Below are positions 51,914 through 62,043 of a stretch of DNA of 64,000 nt, in pieces. The stretch comes from Acidimicrobiales bacterium mtb01. GTDB lineage: Bacteria; Actinomycetota; Acidimicrobiia; Acidimicrobiales; Ilumatobacteraceae. The notes under the pieces were generated by a model. That model was not told where the DNA came from. It saw only the letters and a program-made list of their open reading frames with translations, and did no database searches. Each line of letters opens with the position of its first letter. Position 1 is the first letter of the stretch. Made by a program: the position numbers and the translations under genes. The stretch is from contig NBNI01000007.1 of assembly GCA_004379135.1 (NCBI GenBank), positions 607,501 to 671,500 on the forward strand. Reading direction: 5' to 3'.

Positions 51914-52579
51914 TCAGCGGCGTATCGCTCGCAGATCGACGGCCGCCCGGCCTCGCTCGCGCCCCTCGCGCTCGAAGTGCGTCTCGATCCGCCACGTCGG
52001 TCGTTCGTCTTCCACCCGCACGAAGTTCGGGTCGGCGGCGAGAACGCCGCGCATCTGCTGCGCATAAGCAGCGACGTCGGTGGCCAGCCGCAACGATCCC
52101 CCGGACTTCAGCACTCGAGCGATTCGGGCCATCCGCTCTGAGGTGACGAGACGGCGGTGCGACTGGGCGTTCTTCGGCCACGGATCGGGGAAGAAGGCCC
52201 AGACCTCGTCGATGGACGCGTCGGGCAGTCGGTCGAGGAAGACCAGGGCGTCGCCCTCCACCACGCGCAGATTGCCGAGACCGAACGCGTCGATGTCCGC
52301 CAGCAGACGGGCGATACCCGGTCGGTGCACGTCGACCGCGATCAAGCCGACGTCTGGATGCGATCGCGCGAACGACGAGGCGAGATCCCCGTTCCCCGAT
52401 CCGATCTCCAGACGAATCGAACGTCGATCCGGAAACGACTCGACGAGGTCGAGCACGGGACCGGTTTCGGCGAGCGCGAAGAGCGGCGCCAGCCGTTCGT
52501 ACACCGCCGCGCGCTCCGTGCCGAGCCGACGCCGCCGTGGTTTGAACGTGCGGGCCGTGGGTCGGGGCGACGCTTCCAT
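51914..52579 (-). CDS. trmB: tRNA (guanine-N7-)-methyltransferase
   Basis: Methylates G46 of tRNA. 221 residues from ATG 52579; GTG 52615 would add 12 residues but would place the start one base from the divergent gene. TACCGT (52589-52594) nine bases before the ATG favours the shorter form. SAM motif L-E-I-G-S-G-N-G-D-L and the family signature F-F-P-D-P-W-P-K-N are present. Confidence 0.92.
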   Translation of the reverse strand: MEASPRPTARTFKPRRRRLGTERAAVYERLAPLFALAETGPVLDLVESFPDRRSIRLEIGSGNGDLASSFARSHPDVGLIAVDVHRPGIARLLADIDAFGLGNLRVVEGDALVFLDRLPDASIDEVWAFFPDPWPKNAQSHRRLVTSERMARIARVLKSGGSLRLATDVAAYAQQMRGVLAADPNFVRVEDERPTWRIETHFEREGRERGRAAVDLRAIRR

Positions 52580-52616
52580 CGGCCGGCCACGGTAGCGACG
52601 AGTAGCGTCGCTCACG

Positions 52617-53027
52617 ATGGAGATCCAATTGCAGGTGGTCCTGGCCGACTACGCCGTGACCCACGACGGCAAGGTGATGATGGCCGGTGCGGGCTGGTCG
52701 CAAGTCGGTTCGGGTGTCTTTACGAGCGCCCTCGCCCTCATGGCCAAGATCCCGTGGGACATGACCGAGAAGCGGATCCGGATCCACGCCGAACTCGTGG
52801 ACGAGGATGGTCGGAACGTGCTCGTGAATGCGTCCCCGCTCGCGTTCGACATCGATCTCGAAGTCGCCCGCCCGTCGCATCTACGCCCCGGTTCCGATGT
52901 CGACCAGAACCTCGCGATCCAGATTCCACCCATCGCGCTGGCGCCCGGGCGCAGTTACGAATGGCGCATCACCGTCGACGGCCGCGGCCGTCGCGAATGG
53001 AACCGCACGTTCTTCGTGCGCGAGTAG
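52617..53027 (+). CDS. Conserved hypothetical protein (DUF6941-like)
   Basis: 136-residue, beta-rich soluble protein. Visible pattern: V-V-L-A-D-Y-A-V near the start, I-H-A-E-L-V-D-E-D-G-R-N-V-L-V, I-P-P-I-A-L-A-P-G-R-S-Y-E-W and a closing F-F-V-R-E. It recalls the DUF6941 family of actinobacterial proteins, from memory. TAGCGT (52603-52608) eight bases before the ATG. Function unknown. Confidence 0.65.
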   Translation: MEIQLQVVLADYAVTHDGKVMMAGAGWSQVGSGVFTSALALMAKIPWDMTEKRIRIHAELVDEDGRNVLVNASPLAFDIDLEVARPSHLRPGSDVDQNLAIQIPPIALAPGRSYEWRITVDGRGRREWNRTFFVRE

Positions 53028-53124
53028 AGCCGTCATCATTCGACTCGCCTGACGACCGCGTGTCGTCGGACGCTCCTATTTTCGAGGCGTCACCCGAGAC
53101 GACCGCGAACCCAAAGGAGCCGAC

Positions 53125-53574
53125 GTGGCATCACTGCTCAGGAAATCGATCTTCGACACCGACTGGCCGGCTTGGCCGGCCTGGTCAACATTGCGGAGCC
53201 CCTTCGATCGGAACGACGGGCTGATCGACATGCTGGAGGACACGGCGATCCGAGTCGAGGAATTCGAACTCGACAAGAATTTCGTCATCCGCGCCGAAGT
53301 GCCCGGCATCGACCCCGACAAGGACGTCGACCTGTCGATGTCGGACGGCGTGCTGCGCCTCATGGTGCACCGCCAGAAGGAAAGCCGTGCGACCGACGCC
53401 CGCCACTACCGCAGCGAGTTCCGCTACGGATCGTTCACCCGACTACTCGTGCTGCCGGCTGGGGCGTCGGAAGACGACATCAAGGCGACATACGAAGGCG
53501 GCATCCTCGAGGTGCGGGTGCCAATGAACGGCGCCAAGGCCAAGGAGAAGCGCATCGCCATCGCGAAACGCTGA
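53125..53574 (+). CDS. Small heat-shock protein (Hsp20/alpha-crystallin)
   Basis: ATP-independent chaperone of 149 residues. The alpha-crystallin domain runs from about residue 38: F-V-I-R-A-E-V-P-G-I, D-G-V-L-R-L-M-V-H-R-Q-K-E, F-R-Y-G-S-F-T-R-L-L-V-L-P and the closing G-G-I-L-E-V-R-V-P. The C-terminal I-x-I is I-A-I-A-K-R. GTG at 53125 follows aaaggag with good spacing; TATTTT at 53077-53082 is a likely -10, giving a normal leader. No HspR or CIRCE-like inverted repeat was seen. Confidence 0.93.
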   Translation: MASLLRKSIFDTDWPAWPAWSTLRSPFDRNDGLIDMLEDTAIRVEEFELDKNFVIRAEVPGIDPDKDVDLSMSDGVLRLMVHRQKESRATDARHYRSEFRYGSFTRLLVLPAGASEDDIKATYEGGILEVRVPMNGAKAKEKRIAIAKR

Positions 53575-53580
53575 GCGCCG

Positions 53581-55059
53581 TCAGGCCGGCTTCACCCCGT
53601 ACGCCTCGCACAGCGTCTTCATCTCGTCGAAGTGCAGATCGAGCAGATCCCACAAGTCGGGCACCAGTTCGCGGCAGGCGATGAGTCCGAAGTCGAGTCG
53701 GTCGAGGTAGCTGTGCACGGTGATGTTGAGGCCCATTCCGTCGGTCACGATCGACACCGGGATGTAGTTCTCGAGCCGCGCTCCGCTCAGATACATCGGC
53801 TGACGAGGACCCGGAACGTTGGAGATCACGACGTTGTTGGGCAACAGATTGGCCCGATCGGCCCACCGCAGGCGCGAGGCCAGCCGGGCGGCCGCGGTGG
53901 CGAGGATCGGCGAGGTGGTCTGGGTTCCCTCGGCGATGGTGTCGGCCGGCAGAAGATCGAACTGACGCTTGGCCGCTTCCATGGCTTCATGGCACTGGGC
54001 GATGCGCTCGATCGGATCGGCGGTGGTCGTCGGCAGGTCGGCGATGATGCCCGACACCATGTTGGTCCACGGAACCTCTTCTTCTCCGGTGCGCAACGAC
54101 ACCGGAACCATGGCGCGCAGCGGTCGATCGGGCAGCGCATCGTGCTGGATCAGATAGTTGCGCAGGGCGCCGGTGCAGATGGCCATGACGACGTCGTTGA
54201 CGGTTCCACCCGATGCATTCTTGAGCGCCTTCAACGTCTCGAGCGACGCCGACCGCATGGCGAAACGGCGGTGCGCGGTGATCGTCTTGTTCCACGGCGT
54301 CGGCGGGGCCGGAGTGAGCGGCAGACGCACGCGATCCTCGGCCTGCGGCTGCTCGGGGTCGGGCCGACGGGTCACCGCTCGCAACGTGGCCCGAGCGCGA
54401 CGCGTGATCGTGCTCGCCGGGTCGAACCCCAGTGAATCGAGAACACCTTGGGCGACTCGCAACTGGAAGCGCAGAGCCTTGACCGGATTGCTCGCCAACT
54501 TGGCCACCGCACGCTGCAGTAGCTCGGCGTCGGTGACCGGTTCGTCCGGGACGATGGGGACCGGCGTCAGATCGGGCTGCGCGTCGGGAGTCGCGTCGGT
54601 GAGCATGTTGAGCAGCACGACACCCGCGCCACCATCGATCGTCGAGTGATGGAACTTGGTCATGAGGGCCCAGCCGCCGTTCTGGAGACCTTCGATGACG
54701 TATACCTCCCACAACGGTCGCGAGCGGTCGAGCGGGCGGCCGAAGATGCGCGCGACCTGATCGGCCAGTTGCCGATCGTCACCGGGCGGAGCGAGGCCTA
54801 GGTGCCGAACGTGGTAATCGAGATCGAAGTCGTCGTCGGACACCCAGTACGGATGATCGAGACCGAACGGGACGTCGCGCAGTTTCTTGTGCAGCGGATC
54901 GGCCCGACCGGCCACCGCCTCGAAACGCCGATACACGACCTCGTACGGATCGAACTCGGGCGACGGGCGGCTGTACAGACTCAGGCCCGACACGTGACCG
55001 AACGTGGTGGAGGTCTCGAGATGCAGGAAAGTGGCGTCGAGCCCCGACAGCTGCCTCAT
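53581..55059 (-). CDS. Wax ester synthase/diacylglycerol acyltransferase (WS/DGAT)
   Basis: Makes wax esters or triacylglycerol from acyl-CoA. 492 residues. The active-site H-H-S-T-I-D-G (HHxxxDG) is near residue 137; N-D-V-V-M-A near residue 290 and N-V-P-G-P-R-Q-P near residue 405 are family motifs. N-terminal L-S-G-L-D-A-T-F-L is standard. TACGGT (55066-55071) lies six bases before ATG 55059. Indicates storage lipid synthesis. Confidence 0.94.
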   Translation of the reverse strand: MRQLSGLDATFLHLETSTTFGHVSGLSLYSRPSPEFDPYEVVYRRFEAVAGRADPLHKKLRDVPFGLDHPYWVSDDDFDLDYHVRHLGLAPPGDDRQLADQVARIFGRPLDRSRPLWEVYVIEGLQNGGWALMTKFHHSTIDGGAGVVLLNMLTDATPDAQPDLTPVPIVPDEPVTDAELLQRAVAKLASNPVKALRFQLRVAQGVLDSLGFDPASTITRRARATLRAVTRRPDPEQPQAEDRVRLPLTPAPPTPWNKTITAHRRFAMRSASLETLKALKNASGGTVNDVVMAICTGALRNYLIQHDALPDRPLRAMVPVSLRTGEEEVPWTNMVSGIIADLPTTTADPIERIAQCHEAMEAAKRQFDLLPADTIAEGTQTTSPILATAAARLASRLRWADRANLLPNNVVISNVPGPRQPMYLSGARLENYIPVSIVTDGMGLNITVHSYLDRLDFGLIACRELVPDLWDLLDLHFDEMKTLCEAYGVKPA

Positions 55060-55091
55060 GGGGGAACCGTACCCCCGATCCGGAATTCCCT

Positions 55092-55763
55092 CTACTCGAC
55101 AGTCGTCGGACCCGCCAGACCGTTCCCCAGGACGATGTGGTGCAGCAGATTGCGGTGGGTGAAAATCCAGGCCAATTGCGTGCGGTTGGCCAGACCGGAG
55201 CGGATGAGCATGTGGCTCACCCGGTTTCGGATGGTCTGAGGCGACATGTGAACCACCTCGGAGATCTCCTGATCGGACAGACCGATCGCGATGAGGTTCA
55301 GGATCTCGATGTCGACGTCATCGCGGGTCATCAACGGCAGGTCGAGATGACGGGGCGGCCGATCGACACGTCTCCAGAGCGGATCATCGTCGAGGGCGAA
55401 CTTGCCCTGGCCGATATTGGCGATCGCAGTTCGAATTTCGGGCAGCGGGCGACCCAGGTCCACGACGTCGTCGAACCCGGCGTGGGCCACCTTGATCTTG
55501 AGGGCGTTCGTGACCGGATTGGCGGCCACGACGATCGGCGACTCGGAACAGCCGGCCTGTCGGAGGTACTCGCTGAGGAGAAACGCGAGCTCTGTCATGA
55601 ACCGTCCGACGATGACGACATCAGGCTTGAGGTCGGCGAGTTGCGCCACCAGTGACGGGTCCATTTGATACGTGGGCAGCACGTCCACGCGACCGAGTTC
55701 GGCCAGGGTGCTCGCGAGATCAGGGGCCTCGTCGACGACGAGACGGCCCAGCACGACCCTCAC
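55092..55763 (-). CDS. LuxR-family regulator with divergent receiver-like domain
   Basis: 223 residues. The N-terminal 120 residues resemble a receiver fold (P-D-V-V-I-V-G-R-F-M-T-E; A-G-F-D-D-V-V-D-L-G-R-P) but the usual phospho-Asp position in V-I-V-G-R is not acidic, suggesting phosphorylation-independent control. The C-terminal HTH contains I-A-I-G-L-S-D-Q-E-I-S-E and S-P-Q-T-I-R-N-R-V-S-H-M. Two inverted repeats upstream (55818-55836, 55854-55865) may be its operators. Confidence 0.82.
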   Translation of the reverse strand: MRVVLGRLVVDEAPDLASTLAELGRVDVLPTYQMDPSLVAQLADLKPDVVIVGRFMTELAFLLSEYLRQAGCSESPIVVAANPVTNALKIKVAHAGFDDVVDLGRPLPEIRTAIANIGQGKFALDDDPLWRRVDRPPRHLDLPLMTRDDVDIEILNLIAIGLSDQEISEVVHMSPQTIRNRVSHMLIRSGLANRTQLAWIFTHRNLLHHIVLGNGLAGPTTVE

Positions 55764-55817
55764 GAGCGGATCCGATCAGCGACTCCCGACCCGAATGGAG
55801 GCGAACTGACTCCCACA

Positions 55818-55836
55818 GGTTTTGGCTACCAAAACC
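55818..55836. promoter_or_regulatory. Perfect 8-bp inverted repeat, candidate operator
   Basis: GGTTTTGG-cta-CCAAAACC, 55 bases upstream of the LuxR-type gene's start. The dyad and position suit a regulator-binding site. Confidence 0.4.
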
Positions 55837-55853
55837 ATCGAAAGCAATGACCG

Positions 55854-55865
55854 GTACAAATGTAC
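55854..55865. promoter_or_regulatory. Short dyad, candidate operator or promoter element
   Basis: GTACA-AA-TGTAC, 91 bases upstream of the LuxR-type gene, on the boundary side of the tRNA-flanked element. Confidence 0.3.
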
Positions 55866-55895
55866 TTGGACCGTCGAGTCAGACGGTTAGGGCAG

Positions 55896-55905
55896 GGGGC
55901 GCCCC
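55896..55905. repeat. GGGGCGCCCC palindrome, possible former tRNA-Gly terminator
   Basis: Within gggcagggggcgccccgaccc, just outside the left tRNA-derived repeat. If the element between the two repeats were removed, this palindrome would follow the tRNA-Gly 3' end on the minus strand at about 16 bases. Confidence 0.35.
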
Positions 55906-55921
55906 GACCCTCTCGATTCAC

Positions 55922-55966
55922 TGGAGCGGACGACGGGATTCGAACCCGCGACCCTCACCTTGGCAA
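55922..55966 (-). repeat. Detached tRNA-Gly 3' end (att site, distal copy)
   Basis: 45 bases identical to 59363-59407; covers the 3' half of the tRNA, from the anticodon loop through the T arm and acceptor to CCA. Identity ends abruptly in the anticodon loop. No 5' half follows, so it is not a working tRNA gene. Confidence 0.9.
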
Positions 55967-56080
55967 CCGCGTCAATCCCGTCCACGGTGTTCGTGGAGTT
56001 CGTGCCGTGTTGCCCTGTAAGGGTTTGAGTTTCCTCTGGTGTCGTCCTGTTCGCTGTTTTCGTCCTGTGTCGCCGGCTCG

Positions 56081-56098
56081 TTGTGACATTTTGTGACA
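56081..56098 (+). repeat. Paired TTGTGACA repeats near the left boundary
   Basis: Two TTGTGACA copies with ten-base periodicity (one helical turn), followed by accgaatcggag. The same arrangement is found at 59292-59309 near the right end. They resemble recombinase arm-type sites in placement; protein-binding is an inference. Confidence 0.5.
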
Positions 56099-56139
56099 AC
56101 CGAATCGGAGCCCTCAGCATACGTCTGAAACGGCCAGAG

Positions 56140-56165
56140 GCGGGCCGCCCCGTGGGACGACCCGC
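56140..56165 (-). terminator. Terminator-like hairpin after the first anti-sigma gene
   Basis: An 11-bp stem including two G-U pairs with a four-base loop. The arms are identical to those at 57696-57721 while the loops differ (cacg against aacc on the minus strand). Located about 28 bases past the stop at 56194; no long T tract. Confidence 0.6.
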
Positions 56166-56193
56166 GTCCGAAGTGGAGCAGCGCGTGGCGTTC

Positions 56194-57096
56194 TCAGTCC
56201 CCCGGTGAAACGGTGGTCGCCGGGTCGCCGAGCGGCGTCACGACGCCCTGGTCCGACACCTTGGTTTCAATGGTGGTTTCCGGCGAAAGCTGCACTGGTG
56301 CTTCTTCCTCGGGACCGAACGGAAGGTCGAAACCTTCGTCGGTCAATTTGTTCACCATTGCCACGAGCCCCGAGACCTCACCGGGGATCCATGCGATGTA
56401 TCGGCCCCACCGTTCGCTCTTTGTCGCAGCGACTGTTTCGATGCCATCAACCTTGATGTATGGATCCCAGTTCTCACCGTCGGGCAGATACCCGACAATC
56501 ATGGTTGCCATGAACGATTCTGTGCCGTCATTTCCGTCAATCTTGACAGTGATTGTGCCCGGCGTCTTCCATCCATTTCCGTCGTTGCCGTCGTTCGGGC
56601 CCATCGGCATGTCATTGACGGACACGCTGCCATCTGCGAACTGGACACACAGGACTGCATGGCTGGGAGTGAAATACACGGCTGTGGTCGTTGTGCCGCG
56701 CACATCAATCAACGCGGGATCGAGCATGTCTTGAGGAAATGTCGCCACTGTGGCACCTTCGTATCCGGCCAGGGTCTCGTTCGTGATATGGCAGTTGTTC
56801 TTGGTTTGCTTGATGAGATCATCTGTCGGCGCCGAGGGAATCGCACTCCAGGCAGCCTTTGCGACATCAACCTTGCCGGAAGATGTTCCGCCGATGAACG
56901 ACCCGGCCAGGGCCGTGACGCAGAGAGTTGCAGCTGCCGCGGTGCCCACAAGCAACCGCTTGCCTCGTCTGGTCGAGATCGGCCGCACGTTCATCACAAC
57001 GGGCGTTTCACGGTACTCGGCGGTGCGACGCATCAGATAATCACCTGCGCGGCCGAGCACGTCGTCCAGTTCTTGGGACTCGTGTGGGTGGTTCAT
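56194..57096 (-). CDS. Membrane-anchored putative anti-sigma factor, copy 1
   Basis: 300 residues from ATG 57096 with an ggagga ribosome site. Short cytoplasmic N-terminus (residues 1-45), one transmembrane segment at about 47-69, then an exported domain of about 230 residues. The block from R-L-L-V-G-T-A-A-A-A-T through F-I-G-G-T-S-S-G-K and W-S-A-I-P is nearly identical to copy 2, and D-V-R-G-T-T-T-T-A-V-Y-F-T is shared further on; other regions differ widely. The start overlaps the upstream sigma gene by 4 bases (ATGA). Role inferred from gene order and topology; no ZAS-type H-x3-C-x2-C motif is present. Confidence 0.6.
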   Translation of the reverse strand: MNHPHESQELDDVLGRAGDYLMRRTAEYRETPVVMNVRPISTRRGKRLLVGTAAAATLCVTALAGSFIGGTSSGKVDVAKAAWSAIPSAPTDDLIKQTKNNCHITNETLAGYEGATVATFPQDMLDPALIDVRGTTTTAVYFTPSHAVLCVQFADGSVSVNDMPMGPNDGNDGNGWKTPGTITVKIDGNDGTESFMATMIVGYLPDGENWDPYIKVDGIETVAATKSERWGRYIAWIPGEVSGLVAMVNKLTDEGFDLPFGPEEEAPVQLSPETTIETKVSDQGVVTPLGDPATTVSPGD

Positions 57097-57623
57097 GACT
57101 GTTCCTCCAATGGAAGGGTTGTTGCGGTTGACGGAGACAACAGCGGATCGGTGAATGCAGTCGAGCGGAGACGAGCAATCCCCCGGTGCACATGGTGGTT
57201 GACCACCGCGCGAGTCACGCCGAGAAGGTCGGCCACCTCCGCGTAGGTCCAGCCGAAGGCGTGCACCAACATGACGCACACACGCTGGTCGGGGTTCAGG
57301 CCGGCCAACATCTGCAACGTGTCATGGAGCTGCATATCTTCGTGGACGACGTCGGGGAAACGGCTGGGGAACGTGTTGCGGTTCATCCATCGCACATGGC
57401 TGCGCGACTTCGACTGGGCGACGCGGTAGAGGTACCCGAGAGGGTTCTCCATCGCGATCACCTTCCGCCGGTATTCCCAGGCGTATTCCTCGACTTCTGA
57501 ACACAGGTCGCTTCCGACCTCGATCCCCCACTTGGACACCAGTGCCGGCAGAAGACGCGACCTGATCTCATCGATCAACGCGTCGAAGCCGTCCGGGTAT
57601 CCGTGGTTTCTCGTGTTCTCCAT
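57093..57623 (-). CDS. ECF-like RNA polymerase sigma factor, copy 1
   Basis: 176 residues from ATG 57623. Region 2-like segment A-M-E-N-P-L-G-Y-L-Y-R-V-A-Q-S-K (N-x-x-x-Y-L-Y-R-V is common in ECF factors) and region 4 L-N-P-D-Q-R-V-C-V-M-L-V-H-A-F-G-W-T-Y-A with helix-turn-helix V-A-D-L-L-G-V-T-R-A-V-V-N-H-H-V-H-R-G. Regions 2 and 4 are joined without other domains. It is the same length as copy 2. Upstream it has a motif shared with copy 2, suggesting self-regulation. Confidence 0.72.
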   Translation of the reverse strand: MENTRNHGYPDGFDALIDEIRSRLLPALVSKWGIEVGSDLCSEVEEYAWEYRRKVIAMENPLGYLYRVAQSKSRSHVRWMNRNTFPSRFPDVVHEDMQLHDTLQMLAGLNPDQRVCVMLVHAFGWTYAEVADLLGVTRAVVNHHVHRGIARLRSTAFTDPLLSPSTATTLPLEEQS

Positions 57624-57656
57624 CACCCCTCTAAACCCCAAGACACCCACAAGTGT
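57624..57656 (-). promoter_or_regulatory. Shared promoter-like motif before sigma copy 1
   Basis: On the minus strand: ACACTT, 15-16 bases, TTTAGA, then ggggtg and ATG. The same order and spacing are present before copy 2 (59189-59222) while nearby non-coding sequence differs. Candidate site of autoregulation; the ggggtg could also act as a ribosome site. Confidence 0.5.
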
Positions 57657-57695
57657 CCCAAAGAATCCTCGGATTGGTGTCCACAACGCAACGAG

Positions 57696-57721
57696 GCGGG
57701 CCGCCCGGTTGGACGACCCGC
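57696..57721 (-). terminator. Terminator-like hairpin after the second anti-sigma gene
   Basis: Same 11-bp stem as 56140-56165, with loop aacc on the minus strand. It separates the two modules, 28 bases past the stop at 57750. Confidence 0.6.
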
Positions 57722-57749
57722 CTCCGAAGCGGAGCAGCGCATGAAGAGC

Positions 57750-58661
57750 TCAGTCTTGGGGAGGCTCCGCGACCGTGCTGTTGGGTGCCACCGAGAAACC
57801 AAGACTCCCGGTGGTCGCACCTACTACTCGTTCTTCGCCTGTCTTCGTGTTGACGAACGTGATCTTGAAGTTTCCGGCCGTGGGAACCCACGCCACGAAA
57901 CGCTCCATTGCCCCGTTCACCGAGGCCTTCGTGCGTTCGACTCCAGGTGCATCAACGTAGGCCTCCCATTGGGACTCGATGATCTTGTCCGACTCGCCGG
58001 TTGAGTTCGGGTCGCTACCTGAAATGCTCGGAGGAAGAAAACCGAGAATCATCGTGGCCGAAATGTCCGAGAACAAGTCGAGTGCGATCGGTTCCTGCCA
58101 TGCGGACTCATTGGAACGTGTCATAGCGACCTCAGGCGCATCAATGCTCCCATCGCCAAACTGCACACACATCTTTGCTGTAGTCCATGTGAAATACACG
58201 GCCGTCGTTGTTGTGCCGCGCACGTCAACCAACGAAGGCTCAAGCATGTAGTCGGGAATCGAGTTGGGAGAAATCGGTGGGATCGAGCGCCCCAAAGTTT
58301 CCAACTGCACTGCAGTCTCACTCTTCGCGAGAATCTCTGCGGTGATGCCACAGTCCAGCTTCACCTTGTTGACCTGCTCTGCTGTCGGCCTTGCAGGCAC
58401 TGCGCTCCAGGCGGCCTTGGCGACATCGACCTTGCCCGATGACGTTCCGCCGATGAACGAACCGACGAGTGCCGTGGCGCACAGGGTTGCCGCCGCGGCG
58501 GTACCGACAAGAAGGCGTCGGCCGCGTGCCCCGTCAACCTTCATAACCGGCTGTTCCATCACGGGGTGTTCGAGGTATTCGGATCCGCGACGGGCGAGAT
58601 GCCCGGCTGCCCGGCGAAGGGTGGCCTCGATCTCCATGTCCATTTCGTCAATGGTGTTCAT
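57750..58661 (-). CDS. Membrane-anchored putative anti-sigma factor, copy 2
   Basis: 303 residues. Cytoplasmic N-terminus rich in Glu/Met (residues 1-48), transmembrane segment at about 49-71, exported remainder. Shares with copy 1 the juxtamembrane block G-S-F-I-G-G-T-S-S-G-K-V-D-V-A-K-A-A-W-S and D-V-R-G-T-T-T-T-A-V-Y-F-T, but the distal domain differs (short insertions, different Cys positions). The ATG overlaps the sigma stop by 4 bases (ATGA). As for copy 1, the anti-sigma role is an inference. Confidence 0.6.
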   Translation of the reverse strand: MNTIDEMDMEIEATLRRAAGHLARRGSEYLEHPVMEQPVMKVDGARGRRLLVGTAAAATLCATALVGSFIGGTSSGKVDVAKAAWSAVPARPTAEQVNKVKLDCGITAEILAKSETAVQLETLGRSIPPISPNSIPDYMLEPSLVDVRGTTTTAVYFTWTTAKMCVQFGDGSIDAPEVAMTRSNESAWQEPIALDLFSDISATMILGFLPPSISGSDPNSTGESDKIIESQWEAYVDAPGVERTKASVNGAMERFVAWVPTAGNFKITFVNTKTGEERVVGATTGSLGFSVAPNSTVAEPPQD

Positions 58662-59188
58662 CTGATGTTCTCCTTGTTCTGAGACTGTGTGGTTCGATCG
58701 GCGAGAAGCGGGTCGTCAAAGTGATCGGTGCGCAGGCGGGACATGCCGCGATGGACGTGGTTGTTCACGTCCGATCGCTTCATGCCGAGCAGACTGGCCA
58801 CCTCGTTGTAGGTCCAACCGAAGCCGTGGACGAGGAGCACGCAGGTGCGCTGATCGGGCGAGAGCGCCGACAACATCTGGAGCATGTCGTGGAGTTGCGG
58901 GTCCTCATGGACCACGTCGGGGAAACGGCTCGGGAACGTGGTGCGCTTCGACCACCGTGTGTAGCGACGGGCCTTCGATTGTGAGACCCGGTAGAGGTAG
59001 CCGAGGACATTCGACATGCCGAGTAACCGGTCACGGTTCTCCCAGGCGTACTCCTCGACCTCGCAGCAGATGTCCCCGCCGACCTCGACCCCCCACTTTG
59101 ACCAAAGGACGGGAAGCAACTGGGCGCGCATCTGGTCGATCAGTTCGTCGAACGAGCCTGGGCGACCAGAGCCGGAATTGGTGTCCAT
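58658..59188 (-). CDS. ECF-like RNA polymerase sigma factor, copy 2
   Basis: 176 residues from ATG 59188 (GTG 59191 is an adjacent alternative). N-V-L-G-Y-L-Y-R-V-S-Q-S-K in region 2, then F-P-S-R-F-P-D-V-V-H-E-D shared exactly with copy 1, and region 4 S-P-D-Q-R-T-C-V-L-L-V-H-G-F-G-W-T-Y with helix-turn-helix V-A-S-L-L-G-M-K-R-S-D-V-N-N-H-V-H-R-G. Nearest gene to the intact tRNA. Confidence 0.72.
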   Translation of the reverse strand: MDTNSGSGRPGSFDELIDQMRAQLLPVLWSKWGVEVGGDICCEVEEYAWENRDRLLGMSNVLGYLYRVSQSKARRYTRWSKRTTFPSRFPDVVHEDPQLHDMLQMLSALSPDQRTCVLLVHGFGWTYNEVASLLGMKRSDVNNHVHRGMSRLRTDHFDDPLLADRTTQSQNKENIR

Positions 59189-59222
59189 CACTCCCCTAAG
59201 ACCCCCGACATCCCCGAAGTGT
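59189..59222 (-). promoter_or_regulatory. Shared promoter-like motif before sigma copy 2
   Basis: ACACTT, about 16 bases, CTTAGG, then ggagtg and ATG on the minus strand, matching the motif before copy 1 with one gap. Both also carry a TGTC in the spacer. Confidence 0.5.
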
Positions 59223-59291
59223 TTCAGGGCTCAACGAAGCTTTCAGGCCGTTGCAGGAGACCCCGGAAACAGGGCTCACACCGTCACTTTC

Positions 59292-59309
59292 TTGTGACAA
59301 GTTGTGACA
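59292..59309 (+). repeat. Paired TTGTGACA repeats near the right boundary
   Basis: Same pair, same ten-base phase and same orientation as 56081-56098, followed by tcggag. Located 53 bases inside the tRNA-Gly end. Confidence 0.5.
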
Positions 59310-59339
59310 TCGGAGATTCCGATACTCGGAACCTTCCGG

Positions 59340-59362
59340 AAACCCTTGCAAATAAAGGGTTT
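59340..59362 (-). terminator. Terminator of tRNA-Gly
   Basis: Perfect 8-bp stem AAACCCTT/AAGGGTTT with a seven-base loop, directly following the tRNA 3' CCA on the minus strand. Confidence 0.65.
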
Positions 59363-59407
59363 TGGAGCGGACGACGGGATTCGAACCCGCGACCCTCACC
59401 TTGGCAA
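59363..59407 (-). repeat. att-type 45-base repeat within tRNA-Gly
   Basis: 3' part of the intact tRNA, identical to 55922-55966. See the mobile element entry. Confidence 0.9.
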
Positions 59408-59438
59408 GGTGATGCTCTACCAACTGAGCCACGTCCGC
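59363..59438 (-). tRNA. tRNA-Gly (GCC)
   Basis: 76 bases including encoded CCA. Acceptor GCGGACG/CGTCCGC, D arm GCTCAGTTGGTAGAGC, anticodon arm TCACC-TTGCCAA-GGTGA with GCC, T arm CGGG-TTCGAAT-CCCG. Intact despite hosting the element. Confidence 0.96.
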
Positions 59439-59492
59439 AGCACCCGGAACACTATCGCCGAGCGCGTCCTGCCCAACCCGGCCCGCACCCGG

Positions 59493-60392
59493 TCAGGGGG
59501 CTTCCAACGCCTCCGCGCGCGACCGACCCCACACGGTTCCGGCCAGACCACCCAGCACCAGCACGGCCCCCACGACCTTGTTCCAGCCGAGCGACTGGTC
59601 GTAGATGAGCCAGGCCCCCACCACCGACACCACCGGCCCCAACAACGTGAGCAACGACGTGACCGTGGCGTCGAGATGGCGACTGGCCCACGTGACAAGT
59701 CCGTGGCCCACCAATCCTGGTCCGAGGATCATGCCGGCGAGCAACAGGTAGTCCTTGGCGTTCACCGCTGTGAGGTCATCGGACGCGACGAGACACCACG
59801 GAGTGATCACGATCGACCCGACGAGGAACACACCCGACAAGAAGGTCCACCCATCGACGCCCGCATCTCGCGTGCGCTTGAGGATGATGAAGTACACCGT
59901 CCAACAGGTCACGTTCACCAGCGCGAACAGATCACCTTTGAGCGAAGCGCCGTCGCTGTTCGAACCGACCAGCACTACAAGCACCAGACCGAACAACGAC
60001 ACGAAGGCGAAGGGAAGCCGTCGCAACTCGGTGCGCTCACCCAACAGTCGACCGAGGCCGAGCACCATGAGAGCGGGTGTGAGGTGCGAGATGAGCGTGG
60101 CGGCCGCGATCGAGGTGGTACGGGCGGCCTGGAATCCGAACGTCATCGAGAGTCCGAAGAACACGCCGGGCACGACGCACTTCTTGAGTACGGCGAGCGT
60201 CATTGGTTGACCCCACACCCGGGCGGCGACGAACATCACCGGGGTTCCGAGCCACATGCGATAGAGCGCCACCGTCGTGCCGTCGACGCTCATGCCGCGC
60301 ACCATGAGCGGACCGAGACCCCACGCCACCACGGCAAGAAGAACCGCCGGGACGGCGACGTCGTTCGAGTCGCGTGTGGCCGGGACGGTCAC
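59493..60392 (-). CDS. EamA/DMT-family transporter
   Basis: 299 residues with about ten transmembrane segments in two homologous EamA halves (first begins V-L-L-A-V-V-A-W-G-L-G-P-L, second D-L-F-A-L-V-N-V-T-C-W-T-V-Y). Exporter of unknown metabolite. GTG 60392 overlaps the preceding small gene as GTGA. The C-terminus ends in a short basic tail. Confidence 0.88.
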   Translation of the reverse strand: MTVPATRDSNDVAVPAVLLAVVAWGLGPLMVRGMSVDGTTVALYRMWLGTPVMFVAARVWGQPMTLAVLKKCVVPGVFFGLSMTFGFQAARTTSIAAATLISHLTPALMVLGLGRLLGERTELRRLPFAFVSLFGLVLVVLVGSNSDGASLKGDLFALVNVTCWTVYFIILKRTRDAGVDGWTFLSGVFLVGSIVITPWCLVASDDLTAVNAKDYLLLAGMILGPGLVGHGLVTWASRHLDATVTSLLTLLGPVVSVVGAWLIYDQSLGWNKVVGAVLVLGGLAGTVWGRSRAEALEAP

Positions 60393-60610
60393 GAGGCCTT
60401 CGGACGCAGATCGACCCGGAGAACAAGAACTCCATCCTCGATCGTCGCCTGGGCGTCGCCGATGATCGCGAAATCCTGGAAGTCGCGTTGGGCCTGCTCG
60501 ATGAAGTGCTGGCGTTCCTGACCCGCAACGGGCGGGAGCGGGCGCTTCTTCACGGCGGCGGCCCGGTCGCGGAACCTCTGGAGCATCGCATCGAGATCGA
60601 GTTCGGCCAT
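60389..60610 (-). CDS. Small conserved-looking cytoplasmic protein
   Basis: 73 residues. N-terminal helix L-D-A-M-L-Q-R-F-R-D-R-A-A-A-V-K, central F-I-E-Q-A-Q-R-D-F-Q-D-F-A and a beta hairpin D-G-V-L-V-L-R-V-D-L. The family is not recognised. Overlap with the transporter start (4 bases) suggests co-translation. Confidence 0.65.
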   Translation of the reverse strand: MAELDLDAMLQRFRDRAAAVKKRPLPPVAGQERQHFIEQAQRDFQDFAIIGDAQATIEDGVLVLRVDLRPKAS

Positions 60611-60660
60611 GTCTCCACGGTAGACCGCGCGGCGTCCGCGGGTCGGGTTCTCGACGACGC

Positions 60661-61155
60661 TCAGCGACCGAGCAACGGATCGATCGGCGACGAACCGCCA
60701 CGTTCGATCGGACCCGAATTCACCGGATCGGTGTCGTACAAATCGGAGTCCTCGTCCAGATCGTCGAACAGGCCGTCCACCGCCACAGCAACTGGCTCGT
60801 CCGACGCGAATTCGATGGACGCCGGGATCTCGTCGTCGACGGATGATTGAGCCACGTCGACGTCAGCCAGCGACTCCTCGCTGACCGGTTCGGGAACCGC
60901 GATCACCGCGCCCGGGCGAGCCACGTCGAGAGCCTGGCGCCGTTCGATCTGATTGCCCAGTTGCCAACGTTTCGAACTCATCACCACCAACGGTGCGAGT
61001 GCCTCGGGGTCGGGGCGGGTCGATCGCCAGAACCACACGGTGATGACGGCGAGAGCGACGCCGGCCGCCACCAACGCAAGCGCGACGACCAGAACCACTG
61101 CCGAACTACCGGTGTCACCCACGGAGCGGGTGTCGATACCGGCCAGCCAGGTCAC
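60661..61155 (-). CDS. Single-span membrane protein with acidic tail, unknown
   Basis: 164 residues. One transmembrane segment at about residues 17-43, then a basic juxtamembrane part and a long acidic, disordered cytoplasmic tail (D-D-L-D-E-D-S-D-L-Y-D). GTG at 61155 with CATAAT six bases upstream. No family recognised. Confidence 0.6.
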   Translation of the reverse strand: MTWLAGIDTRSVGDTGSSAVVLVVALALVAAGVALAVITVWFWRSTRPDPEALAPLVVMSSKRWQLGNQIERRQALDVARPGAVIAVPEPVSEESLADVDVAQSSVDDEIPASIEFASDEPVAVAVDGLFDDLDEDSDLYDTDPVNSGPIERGGSSPIDPLLGR

Positions 61156-61204
61156 CCCGTCATTATGTCGCGCCCGGGACCGACCGCACCTGGATCGCGA
61201 CGGG

Positions 61205-61963
61205 TCATCGTTGGTGCTTCGGACACCAGAACGTAGTCCGACCTCCCACCGTGGCCCGACTCAGGATCGCCCCGTCGCGCGGACATGCCGAACCCGGAAC
61301 GCGCAGTTCCACGCTCACCCGTCCGGTGTGGCTGCCACCGCGCTTGGCGAGTTGCGGCAGCACCACGCGCATCCGCGCGTGGATGATGTCGACGGTCGCC
61401 GCGTCGAGTTTCTTTCGGCGCGGGTCGACATCGGCACGCCACAGGATCTCGTCGACCAGCATGTTGCCGAGTCCGGCGACGGTCGACTGGTCGAGCAGCA
61501 CCGCCTTGATGGGAGTGTTGCGGCCGCTCACGCGTTCGCGGAACTCCCGCCGCCCGATCGTCATCGCGTCGGGACCGAGCCCCTCTCCATGGTGCGAGGG
61601 ATGAACGCGCGCGAATCGCCGCGGGTCGCTGACGCACAAGAAGCCCTGTCCGAACGACAGTCCGAAGCGGATCCACTTCGAATCATCCGAAGCCGCGTAC
61701 GACAGTTCGTCGATGGGCGATCGGCCGTCCACGATGATGCGACCAGCCATTCCGAAGTGCAAGTCGACGGCGAGCGACGATGTGTGCAGGGTCAGAACCT
61801 TGCCGAGGCACGTCACATCGTTGATTCGCTTTCCCTCCAGGCTCCGCACGATCTCCGGGTCGGCCACGACGAGCGAATCGAGATGCGTCACCCTCGACAC
61901 CCGGCGACCGATCACTCGCCGCGCCGCCTCGGCGTACATCTCCACTTCGAGGATCTCGGGCAC
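61205..61963 (-). CDS. Fpg/Nei-family DNA glycosylase with variant zinc finger
   Basis: Base-excision glycosylase/AP lyase of 252 residues. After Met removal Pro is first (P-E-I-L-E-V-E), the catalytic nucleophile, with Glu next; K-V-L-T-L-H, L-H-F-G-M-A-G and G-L-G-N-M-L-V-D-E-I-L-W-R-A are family motifs. The C-terminal zinc finger reads C-P-R-D ... F-W-C-P-K-H instead of two C-x2-C pairs, so ligands two and four are Asp and His. Probably still folds, but zinc binding is uncertain. GTG start at 61963. Confidence 0.9.
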   Translation of the reverse strand: MPEILEVEMYAEAARRVIGRRVSRVTHLDSLVVADPEIVRSLEGKRINDVTCLGKVLTLHTSSLAVDLHFGMAGRIIVDGRSPIDELSYAASDDSKWIRFGLSFGQGFLCVSDPRRFARVHPSHHGEGLGPDAMTIGRREFRERVSGRNTPIKAVLLDQSTVAGLGNMLVDEILWRADVDPRRKKLDAATVDIIHARMRVVLPQLAKRGGSHTGRVSVELRVPGSACPRDGAILSRATVGGRTTFWCPKHQR

Positions 61964-62043
61964 ATCCCATTGTCGATCCGCCTCCCCCGCTCCGTCGCAT
62001 CGGCGACGGTCGAAACCCCGACGGCGTGTGGGACAATGAGCAC

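Follow-up and report, generated by a model that had tools for sequence, protein, structure and literature searches.

A 3.4-kb integrase-less element with two sigma-factor modules between phage-type attachment-site halves at a tRNA-Gly gene of an Acidimicrobiales bacterium

Boundaries and gene content of the element

The window considered here is a stretch of 64,000 nucleotides from Acidimicrobiales bacterium mtb01 (Ilumatobacteraceae; assembly GCA_004379135.1, contig NBNI01000007.1, positions 607,501 to 671,500 of the forward strand), in which a 3.4-kb element lies between a tRNA-Gly gene and a detached copy of the end of that gene. The two copies of this direct repeat are identical over 45 bp and spaced by 3441 bp (Table 1). 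One of them is part of an intact tRNA-Gly(gcc) on the minus strand, whereas ARAGORN finds no tRNA at the other, and there is no third copy within positions 52000–62000. Thus, both the positions and the tRNA predictions agree with what the first-pass annotation, made by a model from the letters alone, had read from this repeat. The 3,396 bp between the copies consist of two tandem pairs of genes, each coding for a sigma factor and a putative membrane protein, with all four open reading frames (ORFs) on the minus strand. The ORFs of at least 80 amino acids take up the element so fully that an integrase would not fit, and all seven matches to tyrosine integrases in the same genome fall outside it, bearing out the earlier claim that the cassette lacks one. 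In windowed measurements, the GC content of the element is about 0.58–0.63 versus 0.62–0.70 for its surroundings.

Empty sites in relatives and the patchy distribution of the cargo

The EamA transporter gene and the tRNA-Gly occur together in many relatives, and we compared this site across 24 loci from other genomes (L007–L030): 18 were readable with the core of the repeat (15 from congeners and 3 from other genera) and 6 showed no readable core. All 18 readable relatives have a single copy of the core at the tRNA-Gly, with no second copy beyond the tRNA; the stretch examined past the tRNA measured 5.3–15.8 kb in 14 of them and 0.8–1.4 kb, too short for a far core, in the other four. One relative (G011) preserves what corresponds to the uninterrupted junction: its tRNA-Gly is directly followed by GTGAATCG (gtgaatcg), which matches the far flank of the window, and then by a 53% identical homologue of the LuxR-type gene found there, the far-flank DNA of the two being 61% identical over 825 columns. 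Two further genomes (G001 and G013) have, directly after the tRNA-Gly, a gene that by eye resembles a wax-ester synthase. Since an exact identity of 45 bases is beyond chance and the relatives have single-core sites, the repeat is a duplication of an attachment (att) site, as the first-pass annotation had proposed. The 3.4-kb segment is, therefore, a real insertion, placed into the tRNA-Gly 3' end through site-specific recombination.

The phyletic pattern of the cargo is consistent with this. First, in 23 congeners (completeness 53–97%), the sigma factor of module 2 (sigma 2) found no match better than E 1.9e-4, a result at odds with the vertical inheritance that the first-pass annotation had set against its proposal. 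Second, among 221 genomes of the family, strong matches to the membrane protein of module 2 (partner 2) were recovered only from the own genome, G110 and G029, with four more genomes at E 3.6e-4 to 9.7e-4. Third, 46 of 397 genomes of the order have a sigma match with an E-value of up to 1e-15 (at most eight candidates scored per genome), and among these scored candidates only the sigma of G586 reaches 65%, besides those of the own genome. The closest cargo relatives found (G586, G110 and G029) all belong to other genera. Such a patchy distribution is as expected for transferred cargo.

Arm-type sites at the element ends

Paired arm-type motifs mark the attachment sites of tyrosine integrases. 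We found that TGTCACAA-N2-TGTCACAA occurs exactly twice in the 2.56-Mb own genome, with one copy towards either end of the element, giving the candidate arm-type sites TGTCACAACTTGTCACAA on the P' side and TGTCACAAAATGTCACAA on the P side. These are the only two occurrences of the pair in the window, and 100 shuffles yielded none at up to two mismatches. Among the 221 family genomes, the exact pair is confined to the own genome (two copies, both in the element) and G107 (one copy), with no hits for a reversed-pattern control. The G107 copy (G107:C237; L134:4402-5300) is an identical TGTCACAACTTGTCACAA lying 57 bp downstream of a tRNA-Val(tac), with similar flanking bases, on a contig that ends 748 bp later; the corresponding distance past the tRNA-Gly in the window is 53 bp. 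The core and both arm pairs of the element are undamaged, and the modules occupy the stretch between the arms up to about 100 bp from either one.

A scan of 84,980 species for a T-loop motif followed after 56–86 bases by TGTCACA-N3-TGTCACA returned 35 loci, 22 of which are named as Mycobacteriales (counted by hand), versus a chance expectation of about two by hand arithmetic; L139 and L168 look like such chance matches. ARAGORN identifies a tRNA at 29 of the 35 loci, with the pair 49–71 bp from the tRNA end. Five are at a tRNA-Gly(ccc) of Mycobacterium and Tsukamurella, where three of the cores differ from that of the window at 13–14 of 45 positions and the other two at more than 14. Using a profile grown from an own-genome integrase on stretches of up to 8 kb per locus, we detected an integrase-like ORF no more than 60 bp from the pair, measured to its nearer end, at 11 of the 35 loci (some being fragments or cut at the locus end), farther downstream at three others, and on the opposite side of the site at one; none was detected at the remaining 20, eight of which have about 1 kb or less of downstream sequence. 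All four of the scan-locus integrases typed with Pfam match Phage_integrase, and three of these also match Arm-DNA-bind_4.

Comparable arrangements are present in isolated phages. The integrase at one scan locus (L160) is 51–54% identical to those of phages Dori, Mao1, Sbash, ThulaThula and REQ2, which were chosen among the top 13 of 1,898 phage records in which a related integrase was matched; Giles was added by name. Next to the annotated integrase, Dori, Mao1 and REQ2 have a tRNA-like core flanked on either side by a TGTCAC-type pair, with positions relative to the T-loop GTTC of −156/+75, −156/+74 and −134/+71, respectively, as compared to −153/+77 in the window. The far-side pair of the phages has a spacing of 4, and there is one mismatch per pair in Dori and Mao1 and in the P' pair only in REQ2. 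Sbash and ThulaThula display a TGTGCCA-type motif at the corresponding places (far side by script, near side by eye), and no TGTCACA-type motif was found in Giles. According to the available part of PMC3203893, cluster K mycobacteriophages have paired arm-type sites around the core, and the pairs of Giles and L5 are directly oriented. Among viral contigs, the tRNA-plus-arm pattern gave no match, and three variants of a pair–gap–pair scan returned one contig each. Two of these (L233 and L235) were rejected as attP sites, their sequence being judged repeat-rich or coding DNA. In the third (L234), a tRNA-like core lies between the pairs and next to a weak match to an integrase (20.6 bits, under the Pfam cut-off), but the arm direction is reversed relative to the tRNA, and this contig backs phage-type arms only loosely.

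Judged by sequence and position, the ends of the element, taken together, show both halves of a complete phage-type attP, i.e., a 45-bp core with a co-oriented pair on each side at phage-like distances. We regard it as near certain that an element without an integrase, but with att halves that are complete, is integrated here.

The sigma/partner modules

Both sigma genes code for 176 amino acids from ATG starts at 57623 and 59188, with longer versions possible from TTG 57686 and GTG 59191, and in each module the sigma stop overlaps the start of the partner gene by four bases (ATGA). The modules are paralogous, with 61% identity between the sigmas and 48% between the partners. Each has its own leader, in which a similar GGGACACTT or GAAACACTT stretch is discernible by eye ahead of the start, and each closes with a strong hairpin. 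This is the architecture of two same-strand, four-base-overlapping units that the first-pass annotation had described, and both the ORFs and the identities agree with it.

The identity of the two 176-residue proteins as sigma factors is well supported. Both contain region 4, exceeding the Pfam cut-off for PF08281 (Sigma70_r4_2), while neither matches a Pfam profile for region 2. A structural model based on two sequences (mean predicted local distance difference test, pLDDT, 65) places helices at the positions of both regions, and its top PDB matches are extracytoplasmic function (ECF) sigmas, with modest similarity (best E 6.2e-05; query template-modelling (TM) scores of 0.28–0.59 over the first 16). 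The sigmas score 59.1 and 52.9 bits against the NCBIfam SigE-fam_strep, under its 141.55-bit cut-off.

The partners, of 300 (module 1) and 303 (module 2) amino acids, both appear to be membrane-anchored. In a low-confidence model (mean pLDDT 58), the module 2 partner shows an N-terminal helix, a hydrophobic helix at residues 46–69 and a beta-rich outer domain. These proteins matched no family in Pfam, NCBIfam (E up to 1) or PADLOC, no recognised anti-sigma domain (e.g., a zinc-binding one) was found in them with Pfam and NCBIfam at E up to 1, and a comparison of the modelled partner fold with the PDB gave nothing at E up to 0.001. Thus, the sigma half of the earlier sigma/anti-sigma assignment is borne out by profiles, whereas the half concerning the approximately 300-residue proteins is not. 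As the partners have neither a known family nor a confident fold, it is from the operon layout that we infer them to be anti-sigma factors. If so, the cargo would constitute a bicistronic switch, in which the membrane partner holds the sigma until an outside signal frees it, with the freed sigma then driving its own promoter along with target genes. As the second module is a diverged paralogue, the element may respond to two signals or control two regulons.

Table 1. Features of the element and its immediate flanks (window coordinates)
Feature	Coordinates	Strand	Evidence
Integrated element body	55967..59362	-	3,396 bp, oriented with the tRNA; bounded by 45-bp repeats, absent from relatives
tRNA-Gly(gcc), intact target gene	59363..59438	-	ARAGORN
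Attachment core inside tRNA (attL side)	59363..59407	-	exact 45-bp repeat
Detached attachment core (attR side)	55922..55966	-	exact 45-bp repeat
P'-side arm-type site TGTCACAACTTGTCACAA (candidate)	59292..59309	-	+77 from T-loop GTTC; similar position in Dori, Mao1, REQ2
P-side arm-type site TGTCACAAAATGTCACAA (candidate)	56081..56098	-	-153 from T-loop GTTC; Dori/Mao1 -156, REQ2 -134
Module 2 ECF-like sigma, 176 aa	58658..59188 (59191 if GTG start)	-	Sigma70_r4_2 1.5e-13; ECF fold matches
Module 2 partner, putative anti-sigma, 303 aa	57750..58661	-	4-bp sigma overlap; low-confidence model; no family match
Hairpin region closing module 2	57693..57755	-	86% identical to module 1 copy; -35.5 kcal/mol
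Module 1 ECF-like sigma, 176 aa	57093..57623	-	Sigma70_r4_2 9.5e-13
Module 1 partner, putative anti-sigma, 300 aa	56194..57096	-	4-bp sigma overlap; 48% identical to module 2 partner
Hairpin region closing module 1	56137..56199	-	86% identical to module 2 copy; -32.6 kcal/mol
LuxR-type gene, far flank, outside element	55092..55763	-	GerE match; 53% homologue directly after G011 tRNA-Gly
EamA transporter, tRNA-side flank, outside element	59493..60410	-	adjoins tRNA-Gly in many relatives

Mobilization in trans or reduction of a larger element

We give marginally better than even credence to the element being a non-autonomous integrative element that was inserted by an integrase supplied in trans. 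In this scenario, a tyrosine integrase reading the TGTCACAA arms, supplied by a co-resident phage or integrative element, would have inserted the 3.4-kb element, and the same enzyme could also excise it. The first-pass annotation had offered either a remnant or a cassette mobilised in trans; the choice still stands, with the complete attP halves tilting it to the latter. The locus is a clean and minimal natural case: apart from the two halves of a complete attP of the phage type, the integrated element has nothing that serves mobility. It makes testable, within 3.4 kb, the question of whether the integrase of a phage or an integrative and conjugative element moves foreign cargo for which the arm sites serve as a passport.

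Several observations weigh against such mobilization. First, a helper was not found, the own genome (97.66% complete) being devoid of any further exact arm pair. An arm-domain tyrosine integrase is encoded directly downstream of a tRNA-Leu(taa) in this genome (G000:C1:1112670-1113991; tRNA at C1:1113907), and is the only one of the seven matches that was typed with Pfam; it was rejected as the cognate helper, as its locus has no TGTCACA pair at up to two mismatches. It probably marks another integrated element, a second core for which was not found in the stretch examined. Second, L148-like integrases were matched in 150 of 397 genomes of the order, with up to four candidates scored in each; among the 30 such loci listed, 19 include a tRNA, which is never tRNA-Gly, and none has the arm pair at up to two mismatches. 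Third, sigma 2 and partner 2 had no confirmed match in viral contigs, partner 2 was not found in phages, and the DNA of the element was not found in plasmids. Fourth, intact arms are also expected after a recent deletion, and the P' pair, about 100 bp upstream of sigma 2, could be regulatory. Finally, the exact pair was present genome-wide in all 30 scan source genomes searched (reversed control, 0) but only once in 27 of them; hence, having perfect pairs at both flanks is atypical, with the caveat that a far-side spacing of 4 fell outside this search. The nearest integrase-less comparator (L157) has no far arm and so resembles a remnant.

The strongest competitor, to which we assign a sizeable probability that falls short of even, is a remnant of the cis-mobilizable element (CIME) type: a larger, integrase-bearing prophage or integrative element would have entered the tRNA-Gly, and an internal deletion would have left its ends and the two modules. 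Its form fits the definition of CIMEs in the accessible text of PMC5704250, decaying cases are known (the Nocardia locus L153 and L157), and it sits well with the failure to find a helper in the own genome. Moreover, in the 11 of 35 comparator loci with an adjoining integrase-like ORF, that ORF adjoins the P' arm, a place taken by sigma 2 in the element. However, no integrase remnant is seen among the ORFs of at least 80 amino acids in the element (shorter pieces lay outside the profile search). The perfect core and arm pairs, and the close packing of two modules between those arms, also speak against erosion from a larger element, no larger version of which was found at the tRNA-Gly in any of the 15 congeners read. 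Further, repeats also bound the segment that contains the cargo relative in G110, and no integrase was seen there.

That the TGTCACAA pairs are instead promoter or operator sites of the sigmas, and thus uninformative on an integrase, appears improbable. One of the pairs does lie about 100 bp upstream of sigma 2, and we take TGTCACA to resemble the −35 motif of ECF41-type promoters. The other pair, however, lies beyond the last gene; in isolated phages, tRNA cores next to annotated integrases have similar pairs on their flanks, with the motif changed but in the same places in Sbash and ThulaThula; and in all 11 loci with an adjoining integrase-like ORF, this ORF points towards the tRNA, so the arm site is not its promoter.

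It is far more improbable still that the genes are simply ancestral neighbours of a tRNA whose duplication is old or fortuitous, an explanation refuted by the empty sites and opposed by the exact 45-bp repeat, the absence of the sigma from the searched congeners and the arm pairs at both ends, even though distant sigma kin occur near tRNA 3' ends in G030 and G041. Neither of these has a distant att copy (G030 has only local repeats of the tRNA end), and tRNA proximity alone, therefore, proves little. Nor is the sigma family generally tied to tRNAs, which are present in just 3 of 36 sigma loci (own, G030 and G041).

If the element was indeed mobilised in trans, transcription switches would be horizontally delivered goods. 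Integrase-less att-flanked cassettes, missed by searches keyed to integrases, may then be common, with arm-site scans being one route to them.

Cargo relatives, cassette arrays and other integrase-less loci

Among the cargo relatives, G110 codes for a single module (L129:13676-15084 on G110:C236), whose sigma is 80% identical to that of module 1 and 62% to that of module 2, while its partner is 60% identical to that of module 2 and 46% to that of module 1. These pairwise identities suggest that sigma/partner pairs have been reassorted by partner exchange. The module lies between repeats of about 190 bp that code for the C-terminal ~58 residues of a YbaK-like (tRNA_edit) protein and are present in three copies on the contig; no integrase was seen by eye among the ORFs listed for this contig, on which no integrase profile was run. 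In G029, a partner fragment (65%) lies at a contig edge, about 730 bp beyond the 3' end of the transfer-messenger RNA (tmRNA) gene and on the opposite strand. It is conceivable, though in our estimate unlikely, that sigma/anti-sigma switches of this lineage are autonomous regulator cassettes that circulate without an integrase via several site-specific recombination systems, namely as an attP-mimicking satellite at the tRNA-Gly, which would borrow the integrase of a phage, in the ybaK arrays of G110 and in the vicinity of the tmRNA 3' end in G029, with sigma and partner also reassorting.

The ybaK repeats bound arrays of small cassettes, often of one gene and about 0.6–2.5 kb, each ending in the ~190-bp repeat and all on one strand. 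We observed such arrays in the own genome (G000:C3:202081-205250; L254:6082-9248), in L255, L256, L257, L258 and L259, and in G110 (L129:13429-17186). At least 14 of the 221 family genomes have three or more copies of the repeat per contig, and in 7 of these 14 the copy farthest upstream contains a long frame that looks full-length. A GGTTNCCNAAACCAA-like motif recurs at several of the cassette boundaries. By Pfam, the cassette genes in two arrays include a hydrolase, a methyltransferase, TrmO, DinB, MerR and PNPOx, and the own-genome array contig (C3) has no tyrosine-integrase match. These arrays look like an undescribed integron-like or tandem-accretion cassette system and may be a larger discovery than the element at the tRNA-Gly.

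An exact second copy of the core is found in only two of the 35 scan loci (up to 8 kb each). The first of these (L157:2006-5478, Mycobacterium numidiamassiliense) has an mmpS–mmpL pair between a tRNA-Pro and a detached 26-bp copy, with the tRNA-side arm only; no integrase was found, nor a far arm at up to four mismatches. The second (L153) features an integrase-like fragment, recognised by eye and missed by the integrase profile, between 27-bp repeats. Both look like remnants, L157 because its far arm is missing; the element in the window differs from them in having kept both arms.

Several elements with the same arm site also carry defence-like genes next to the tRNA: a PRTase-CE and an ORC-CDC6-like ATPase in L141 (Pfam), an AbiEi-like gene just under the cut-off in L158, and genes judged by eye only in L135, L155 and L167.

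Comparison with known systems

The attP sites of Dori, Mao1 and REQ2 resemble the element in that a tRNA 3' core is flanked on either side by a co-oriented TGTCAC-type pair, with the distances almost unchanged from one to the other; they differ in that the phages carry an integrase and a phage genome, that their core is from another tRNA, and that the far pair has a spacing of 4 rather than 3. Helper-embedded phage-inducible chromosomal islands (PICIs), as presented in the part of PMC10111431 at hand, have an attP with a co-oriented doubled motif on both sides of its centre at unequal distances. They thus resemble the element in this doubled motif and, presumably, in helper dependence, but encode their own integrase, where the element has none. 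The ORFs and Pfam matches of the element included none of the PICI or satellite gene set (integrase, regulatory, replication and packaging genes). Clusters of attC sites lacking integron-integrases (CALINs) and miniature inverted-repeat transposable elements (MITEs) similarly keep recombination sites for an enzyme provided from elsewhere in trans, going by the consulted portion of PMC11389934; theirs are attC sites or transposon ends, in contrast to the tRNA att with phage-type arms seen here. A 12-kb region of Vibrio albensis at the GI-24 site is likewise at a known island site with no integrase found, but is larger and has CRISPR-Cas cargo, and its att halves or arms are not described in the excerpted text of PMC6360697.

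With respect to the cargo, the modules resemble actinobacterial ECF sigmas of the SigE type in having region 4, ECF-like helices and an overlapping gene for a putatively membrane-anchored partner; they differ in that the sigmas stay under the SigE-fam_strep cut-off and the partner has no known family. In the literature, covered mostly through its open-access part, we found nothing that names arms of the TGTCACA type, arrays built on ybaK or an element with sigma cargo alone and no integrase.

Nevertheless, the statement of the first-pass annotation that no element of this form had been described was too strong, as att-flanked integrase-less elements are known as CIMEs. By the partial text of PMC5704250, these keep attL and attR, are devoid of integration and transfer genes, and are mobilised in cis; CIME-like elements at the tmRNA gene (ssrA) of Dehalococcoides are a further case in what is accessible of PMC3146451. 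The element similarly keeps attL and attR without integration or transfer genes, and its target, too, is the 3' end of a gene (that of tmRNA in Dehalococcoides). It differs from the CIMEs, as far as these sources portray them, in showing no evident decay, adjacent helper or accretion at the tRNA-Gly, and in a cargo of only two sigma/partner modules. The element is, thus, a variant of CIMEs or of other helper-dependent elements.

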